A stretch of DNA of 47,869 nt, taken from positions 1 through 47,869 of the forward strand of contig CAMWUR010000009.1 of NCBI GenBank assembly GCA_947177485.1, read 5' to 3'. The position numbers were made by a program, and so were the translations under genes. This document shows, piece after piece, positions 1-2,245 of the stretch (its first letter is position 1; every line of letters starts with the position of its first letter). The notes beneath the pieces are model-generated. The model ran no database searches, was not told where the DNA came from, and worked only from the letters and a program-made list of their open reading frames with translations. Origin of the DNA: an uncultured Helicobacter sp. Lineage in GTDB: Bacteria; Campylobacterota; Campylobacteria; Campylobacterales; Helicobacteraceae.

Positions 1-81
1 TTTGTCATGTTGAGGCAAAGCCGAAACATCTCATGATTGACAACATAAGATTCTTCAGCCTAAAGGCTTCAGAATGACAAA
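1..81. repeat. Inverted pair of palindromic repeats
   Basis: Copy A reads on the plus strand from 1 and copy B on the minus strand from 81; both begin TTTGTCAT. Each folds into a hairpin of the same design: a five-base outer stem, a two-base GA/GA internal mismatch, an inner GGC/GCC-type stem and a three- or four-base loop. Hairpin A is 7-29 and hairpin B is 50-75. The outer stems differ between copies (GT/AC against TC/GA) but keep pairing, so the structure rather than the sequence is conserved. Longer complementarity (28-38 with 80-90) brackets the pair. It looks like a dispersed REP- or MITE-like element; I cannot name the family. Confidence 0.6.
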
Positions 82-949: not shown

Positions 950-2245
950 ATGCAAAGCAAAGAAATTTTAGAACAACTTAGAGACGAAATCTCCGAACTC
1001 GAGTATGAGCATTATCTCAAACAGCTGCAATACATCGAAGAGATGTCATCGAGTAGCCACGCGGTGTTTAGCGCGCCCAATATTCTGATTGCAAATTGGG
1101 TGCGCACGAAATACATGCAACGAATTGCGCATCTTTTCGAGCTGCGCAATGGCAACACCACGACAATCGAGATTATCCTCGCCACGCAAAAAAAGTCGCC
1201 ACCCAAACAGAAAAACGTGAAACGTACGAGCATTCTCGATTTTACATGTACATTTGAAAACTTCGTTGTCGGCGGCTCGAATCGTATGGCACACAACGCC
1301 GCTTCTAATGTTGCAAAACATCAGGCGAAGTTTAATCCATTGCTCATCTATGGTGGCACAGGACTTGGCAAAACACATCTGCTGAATGCGATTGGAAACT
1401 ATGTGAGCCACAACAAAAGCGTGAATTATGTAACAAGTGAACAATTCCTCAATGACTTTGTGCACCATCTGCGCAACAAGACGATGGATAGATTCAAAGA
1501 AAAATACCGCTCGAATGATTATCTGCTGATTGATGATATTCAATTTCTCGCCTCCAAAGGCAAGGACACGTTGCAAGAAGAATTCTTCCATACCTTTGAG
1601 GAGCTGCACAACAACAAAAAGCAGATTGTGATGACATCAGACAAACACCCAAAATATATTGACAAACTCGATGAGCGGCTCAAAAGCCGCTTCCTTTCAG
1701 GGCTTGTGTGTGAGATTCTGCAGCCCGAGCTCGAAACAAAGATTCGCATTATCAAAAACATCTGCCAACGTGATAAAATTTTTCTGACAAATGATGTGAT
1801 TGAGTTCATCGCTACAAATATCAATAATAATATTCGCGAGATTGGCGGAAACATCTTACAGCTCAATGTTGCCGCAAACATCATCGGGCAAGACATCACG
1901 CTCGACTTTGCGCGCCAGCAGCTCAAGGAACACATTGTCGAAGAAAGCACAAACATCACTTTGGAACGAATCATCGACACCGTGGCACTCAATTACAATA
2001 TCAAACCCTCCGAGATTAGCAGCAAATCAAAGCGCAAAAAAATCGTCCTCTCGAGACGAATCGTCATCTATCTCGCTCGTCTGCTCACACCCAACTCAAT
2101 GCCATCTATCGCGCAAGGTTTGGGTATGAAAGACCACAGCTCTGTGAGCAAAGCCTACAAAGCCATCGAATCCGAAATCAAAATCAACAAAGATTTCAAG
2201 CTCGAGCTCGAAGAATTGCAAAGCAAGATTCGGCTGAAAAACTAA
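950..2245 (+). CDS. dnaA: Chromosomal replication initiator DnaA
   Basis: DnaA binds origin boxes, forms an ATP-dependent filament, melts the unwinding element and loads the helicase. The 431-residue protein has an N-terminal domain I (about 1-75), an AAA+ domain with Walker A GGTGLGKT (135-142) and Walker B LLIDDIQF, the arginine-containing LDERLKSRF segment, and a C-terminal domain IV with the box-recognition motif KDHSSVSKAYKAI. The frame is open back to 905, but I place the start at ATG 950: the extra 15 residues do not look like DnaA and AAAGGG lies just upstream of 950. The promoter and leader carry DnaA boxes, suggesting autoregulation. Confidence 0.97.
   Translation: MQSKEILEQLRDEISELEYEHYLKQLQYIEEMSSSSHAVFSAPNILIANWVRTKYMQRIAHLFELRNGNTTTIEIILATQKKSPPKQKNVKRTSILDFTCTFENFVVGGSNRMAHNAASNVAKHQAKFNPLLIYGGTGLGKTHLLNAIGNYVSHNKSVNYVTSEQFLNDFVHHLRNKTMDRFKEKYRSNDYLLIDDIQFLASKGKDTLQEEFFHTFEELHNNKKQIVMTSDKHPKYIDKLDERLKSRFLSGLVCEILQPELETKIRIIKNICQRDKIFLTNDVIEFIATNINNNIREIGGNILQLNVAANIIGQDITLDFARQQLKEHIVEESTNITLERIIDTVALNYNIKPSEISSKSKRKKIVLSRRIVIYLARLLTPNSMPSIAQGLGMKDHSSVSKAYKAIESEIKINKDFKLELEELQSKIRLKN

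Follow-up and report, generated by a model that had tools for sequence, protein, structure and literature searches.

A head-to-head REP heterodimer in Helicobacter and a GIY-YIG nuclease as candidate partner of CGTC/TGTC-tagged REPs

The window analysed here is a stretch of 47,869 nucleotides that forms the start of a contig (C9) of an uncultured Helicobacter genome, which comprises 2.04 Mb in 97 contigs. It opens with a pair of inverted hairpins, after which ruvC, dnaA, dnaN and gyrB come next, and its DnaA shares 96–97% identity with the DnaA of two Helicobacter MAGs. Another contig of the same genome (C18) was placed just upstream of the window by synteny with a Helicobacter MAG (L011). Because many contigs start or stop near a copy of the repeat, it probably breaks the assembly. 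The features are:

1–31, plus strand: copy A, a TGTC-tagged REP hairpin, TTTGTCATGTTGAGGCAAAGCCGAAACATCT, with the outer pair GT/AC (type A), the inner hairpin GGC-AAA-GCC and a tandem G.A/A.G mismatch
32–47: spacer of the dimer, 16 nt, head-to-head arrangement
48–81, minus strand: copy B, a TGTC-tagged REP hairpin, TTTGTCATTCTGAAGCCTTTAGGCTGAAGAATCT, with the outer pair TC/GA (type B) and the inner hairpin AGCC-TTTA-GGCT
257–274: palindrome CTGCGACTTTAGTCGCAC, of the same REP family as the flanks of the only Y1 (RAYT-like) gene in this genome (L009)
1349–1418, minus strand: sub-threshold Rfam match to AsdA, the antisense RNA of dnaA (29.3 bits, gathering score 52)

The initial annotation had described two inverted hairpins at the window start, and both were found as described; the blocks common to the two, the change from GT/AC to TC/GA and the tandem G.A/A.G mismatch are likewise present in copies A and B. 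In positions 1–81, two units of a high-copy, TGTC/CGTC-tagged REP form one head-to-head heterodimer, and this copy of the dimer is intergenic. In a single folded unit, tandem G.A mismatches separate an outer stem of 5 bp from an inner one, and the inner hairpin varies in sequence and length (about 7 to 19 nt) while its complementarity is kept. Sequences identical to copy A are present at other sites of the genome, the inner hairpin of copy B is shared by 13 copies in 738 kb of the genome, and spacers resembling positions 32–47, for example CATGATTGACAACATG and its variants, occur in other A–B dimers.

The pattern of the repeat was found twice in the window (shuffles: mean 0.01, 0/100 reaching two). 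The search for further copies in the genome that the initial annotation had proposed returned 117 exact matches and 212 with a shorter pattern, against none for a reversed control pattern. For the analysis of the stems, 131 copies were taken from stretches of this genome totalling 738 kb, which are not a random sample because they were picked around known copies. Both variable base pairs of the outer stem are complementary throughout in 128 of these 131 copies; they read TC/GA in 63 copies (type B), GT/AC in 54 (type A) and AT/AT in 10 (type C), and very few copies depart from these types. The stem pairs A4-T and T5-A are invariant, as the search pattern itself demanded of both. Pairing at individual positions was scored over 155 distinct copies drawn from several genomes: it reaches 98.1% at outer pair 1, 97.4% at outer pair 2 and 94% at inner pair 2, where shuffles give 47%, 77% and 48%, respectively. 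Every pair tested lies above the shuffle mean, mostly by a wide margin. A formal covariation score amounted to 0.222 and 0.422 in two gap-free sets (shuffles 0.100 and 0.164, respectively); 0/500 shuffles reached the score of either set, and slid controls were far lower. Since REP copies share descent, these counts are not independent events. Compensatory change in the stem, as originally claimed, is borne out by strong covariation. On the tag strand, G.T pairs outnumber A.C mismatches by about 40 to 16 (p = 0.002), so that the TGTC strand is likely the folded one, an excess that does not tell single-stranded DNA from RNA.

Head-to-head arrangement predominates, accounting for 43 of the 60 close pairs of the source genome, and all 88 head-to-head dimers examined, from five genomes, are heterodimers of one B unit and one A or C unit (43/43 in the source genome, 11/11 in G019, 26/26 in G003, 6/6 in G001 and 2/2 in G021). 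Same-strand neighbours at most 70 bp apart are always of one type in the latter four genomes. Di Nocera et al. 2013 (PMC3733652) described a superfamily of CGTC-tagged REPs without a dedicated transposase, with CGTC, TGTC or CCTC as tags and TGTC as a stated variant of CGTC; heterodimers are common in its groups CGTC-2 and CGTC-3 and were left unexplained, and no tyrosine transposase gene was flanked by its REPs. The Helicobacter REP agrees with these elements in the unpaired TGTC tag outside the stem at one end of the palindrome (TTTGTCAT in the copies), in A-T and T-A as the first two stem pairs, and in its predominantly head-to-head dimers, its heterodimers, its intragenic units and the lack of a linked tyrosine transposase. 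However, the continuous stem of 8–9 bp, the loop of 4–5 nt and the tail near CCA described in PMC3733652 are not found in the Helicobacter REP, in which tandem G.A mismatches interrupt the stem, the inner hairpin is variable in length, the tail is CT and arrays are common. Because of the 5-bp stem, the G.A/A.G mismatches, the inner hairpin and the tail CT, it falls outside CGTC families 1–4, and Helicobacter is not among the taxa named in that study. The window feature is a new form of CGTC/TGTC REP.

A part of the family resides inside genes. By ORF coordinates, long open frames contain 29 of the 131 copies, or 25 when the margin is stricter, and the host genes are mostly those of restriction-modification (HsdM, HsdS, HsdR, Mod), besides a polbeta/GIY-YIG ORF and a saccharopine-dehydrogenase-like ORF. 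Nearly all type C copies (9/10) lie in genes, and nearly all type A copies (54/56) lie between them (p = 1e-8). Sense B units within genes of the source genome, G003, G019 and G009 have an inner length of 1 mod 3 in 51/51 cases, compared with 22/46 outside genes in the source genome (p = 2e-10), and the reading frame is therefore preserved. Within genes of the source genome, B units are always sense and A or C units always antisense. Among intergenic copies the strand bias relative to gene direction is weak (21 to 10), and the strict polarity inside genes is therefore more likely an effect of reading frame or descent. In G021 the polarity in genes is reversed: A units are sense, B units antisense.

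Arrays were also found inside HsdS, HsdR, type ISP and similar genes of G019, G003 and G009. In G021, in-frame arrays occupy IspDF, UreF, UreD, a Maf glycosyltransferase and PEP carboxylase (L192, L193, L194). Alignment to solved structures places about 95 residues between residues 639 and 652 of E. coli PEPC, and about 190 residues within UreH. Palindromes in frame within protein-coding genes are likewise known from the Rickettsia palindromic elements RPE-4 and RPE-6, themselves CGTC REPs (PMC3733652); this likeness holds for the family elsewhere and not for the window copy, and unlike in Rickettsia the insertions of the source genome are mainly in restriction-modification genes and show strict strand polarity. 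Two loci with arrays are of note for their organization. At L037:4088-5239, one ORF between HsdM and HsdS genes holds no fewer than seven REP units together with an MntA-like nucleotidyltransferase domain and a GIY-YIG domain; at L092:3961-5208, the N-terminal part of an HsdS gene, including its REP array, is tandemly duplicated, an arrangement which suggests that REP arrays may favour recombination among HsdS specificity domains.

The hairpins had been proposed to be either a mobile palindromic element or a structured RNA. The first of these readings is well supported by copy number, a patchy distribution among close relatives of the source genome, sites with and without the element, dimers and clusters. 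For the family, as distinct from the window copy, REP presence differs between related genomes, and obligate A/B or C/B heterodimers and arrays lie in intergenic space or in frame. Intergenic regions within the genus are a mosaic of several repeat families with about 86% identity, and the clean comparisons with and without REPs therefore come from plasmids and from coding genes, such as the type ISP gene of G019, whose orthologue in G029 is free of arrays. A cis-acting role at the RNA level, in which the hairpins would be retained as transcription terminators, mRNA stabilisers or regulators, would account for the covarying stems, the G.T excess on the tag strand and the stable RNA structure of the entire dimer (minus strand, z -5.2). 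Against it speak the patchiness, the many copies in frame within genes and the Rfam search, which returned sub-threshold chance matches and no family above threshold. By crude gene calls, the distribution of intergenic copies over unidirectional (31), divergent (13) and convergent (10) gaps simply reflects the length that each kind offers; positions downstream of genes are not preferred and divergent gaps are not avoided. The structured-RNA reading therefore finds no support, and we regard a function in cis as improbable; gene context likewise does not favour a terminator or 3'-end role.

A RayT-like transposase had been suggested as partner, and an ordinary RAYT (Y1 HUH transposase) mobilises GTAG REPs and REPINs. 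The BIMEs and REPINs of E. coli and Pseudomonas resemble the Helicobacter REP as inverted dimers, in mosaic clusters and as non-autonomous high-copy elements, but they carry a GTAG tag and come with a RAYT, whereas the Helicobacter REP has neither a GTAG or GTGG tag (its tag being TGTC) nor an associated RAYT, its candidate enzyme being a GIY-YIG nuclease. One Y1 gene is indeed present in the source genome (L009), but it is flanked by palindromes of the GTGCGACTTTAGTCGCAC type, a family other than the TGTC REP, and no RAYT gene flanked by the same REP was found. Moreover, Y1 genes are absent from the element-rich genomes G009, G019, G021 and G030, the Y1-rich G031 lacks the element, and Di Nocera et al. 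saw no tyrosine transposase gene between CGTC REPs (PMC3733652). The RAYT association was dropped on these grounds. Mobilisation by a RAYT is largely refuted and highly improbable, and would require activity in trans of the lone Y1 gene.

A better candidate than a RayT-like transposase is a subfamily of GIY-YIG nucleases of about 95 aa with the consensus YIGVTSxLxxRxYEH..REKxLK..NPxWxDLY. In the source genome, one intragenic array of the window's REP type encloses a GIY-YIG domain; among relatives, nearly all genomes have a UvrC-sized GIY-YIG match and a few have a small standalone protein. Across 397 Campylobacterota genomes, CGTC/TGTC palindromes lie within 350 bp of 23 of the 24 strong-subfamily loci, the exception being L239, whereas none of 30 control loci is flanked by them (0/24 UvrC, 0/5 weak GIY-YIG hits and 0/1 YhbQ-like). 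On plasmids, tagged palindromes were found on at least one side in 15/15 fetched loci, which represent Alpha-, Beta- and Gammaproteobacteria, Cyanobacteria and Bacteroidota. The plasmid genera with hits include Rhizobium, Sinorhizobium, Shinella, Sphingobium, Novosphingobium, Azospirillum, Neisseria, Aeromonas, Photobacterium, Planktothrix and Spirosoma, and overlap with the species for which Di Nocera et al. named CGTC REPs (N. aromaticivorans, A. lipoferum, S. meliloti and Neisseria; PMC3733652). In a set of 23 Bacteroidota genomes, three of the five stronger GIY hits are flanked by palindromes, two have degenerate palindromes only, and none of the weaker hits is flanked. At many plasmid loci the upstream REP is on the plus and the downstream REP on the minus strand, with tags pointing outward; orientations at the Campylobacterota loci are mixed. 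The subfamily shares the GIY-YIG domain and its conserved motif residues with GIY-YIG homing endonucleases and UPF0213/YhbQ proteins (nearest solved chain: UPF0213 protein BH0048, 1zg2), but the YhbQ-like and UvrC loci checked lack flanking REPs, and the REP-flanked proteins form a separate subfamily. Altogether, the association between REPs and GIY-YIG genes is strong, while the direction of dependence is inferred. The REP, REPIN and RAYT literature searched, a scope that left preprints and most subscription journals outside, does not mention GIY-YIG, and so we make no claim of priority.

Several sites suggest, from sequence comparison, that REP-GIY-REP is a mobile unit. In A. lipoferum, a GIY gene lies between sufB and sufC with a REP dimer on each side, and four other Azospirillum have no gene there. 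Similarly, S. meliloti Ak57 carries a GIY gene between gltA and lpxB, and Sinorhizobium K101 has none at that site. In S. meliloti and Shinella the unit sits at unrelated loci, and the homology between the two runs precisely from one REP to the other. Beside the S. meliloti unit, a REP, the 5' leader, the last part of the GIY gene and a second REP remain (L265:1163-1321), which represents an internal deletion and is the single case of such a derivative. A second S. meliloti GIY gene on the same replicon is flanked by REPs of a different type, and this gene, like that of A. lipoferum, belongs to those flanked by whole dimers instead of single REPs.

On the whole, the best explanation is that the window dimer belongs with REP-GIY-REP as the autonomous form and that the candidate nuclease mobilises the REPs, to which we would give even chances. 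The hairpin with its 5' TGTC tag would be the recognition site of the enzyme, and the dimer a non-autonomous (MITE-like) mobile element. The autonomous form would be a REP-GIY-REP unit of about 375–390 bp encoding the nuclease of ~95 aa, which would cut at REP hairpins; after the cut, REP-bounded units may spread via strand transfer or repair. Dimers could then result when the nuclease gene is deleted from within the unit, of which S. meliloti offers the one observed instance. The broader proposal, that CGTC/TGTC REPs of many phyla are ends and deletion derivatives of a minimal REP-GIY-YIG-REP of ~380 bp, moved by this nuclease of ~95 aa and not by a DDE/HUH transposase, is tentative and in our estimate somewhat more likely wrong than right.

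Conversely, the GIY gene may be a homing gene exploiting REPs, because most REP-rich Campylobacterota lack it: of 32 genomes that carry ten or more TGC-type copies, 23 have no strong hit to the subfamily, among them G246 (731 copies), G110 (251), G373 (157) and G267, which has GIY fragments only. The element-rich G009, G019 and G021 contain a single, UvrC-sized GIY-YIG match each, and G030 adds one sub-threshold hit. The mixed orientations at the Campylobacterota loci and the unflanked gene of L239 likewise count against mobilisation by the nuclease. A free-standing homing endonuclease with REP arrays as its homing site would be a parasite of REPs that spread otherwise, and it would also fit the GIY copies between two whole dimers and a weak, below-cutoff match to a group I intron endonuclease model. 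Against this reading speak the REP-to-REP homology between units of S. meliloti and Shinella whose loci are unrelated, the deletion derivative that retains both REPs, and GIY genes present where REPs of their own type are sparse, for example around S. meliloti gltA. In addition, a GIY gene tends to be flanked by the REP type that is abundant in its genome: at least five TGC copies occur in 8/8 genomes with a TGC-REP-flanked GIY gene versus 2/16 other GIY genomes (p = 6e-5), a count that in part includes the flanking copies themselves. We consider homing unlikely, though by far less so than a function in cis or mobilisation by a RAYT.

The arrays inside genes show hairpins that are kept in structure and in reading frame together, and those within restriction-modification genes, and within PEP carboxylase and UreD of one species, represent proteins tolerating DNA-level parasites. 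CGTC-tagged REPs occur in at least five phyla; for lack of a linked transposase, the means by which they spread has been an open question since 2013. If mobilisation by the GIY-YIG nuclease is true, the enzyme reported missing for the CGTC/TGTC REP superfamily would be identified. With a nuclease gene that recurs between REPs, is absent from the corresponding sites of relatives and has left a deletion derivative, the question of their spread becomes directly testable, and the candidate nuclease is the part deserving follow-up.
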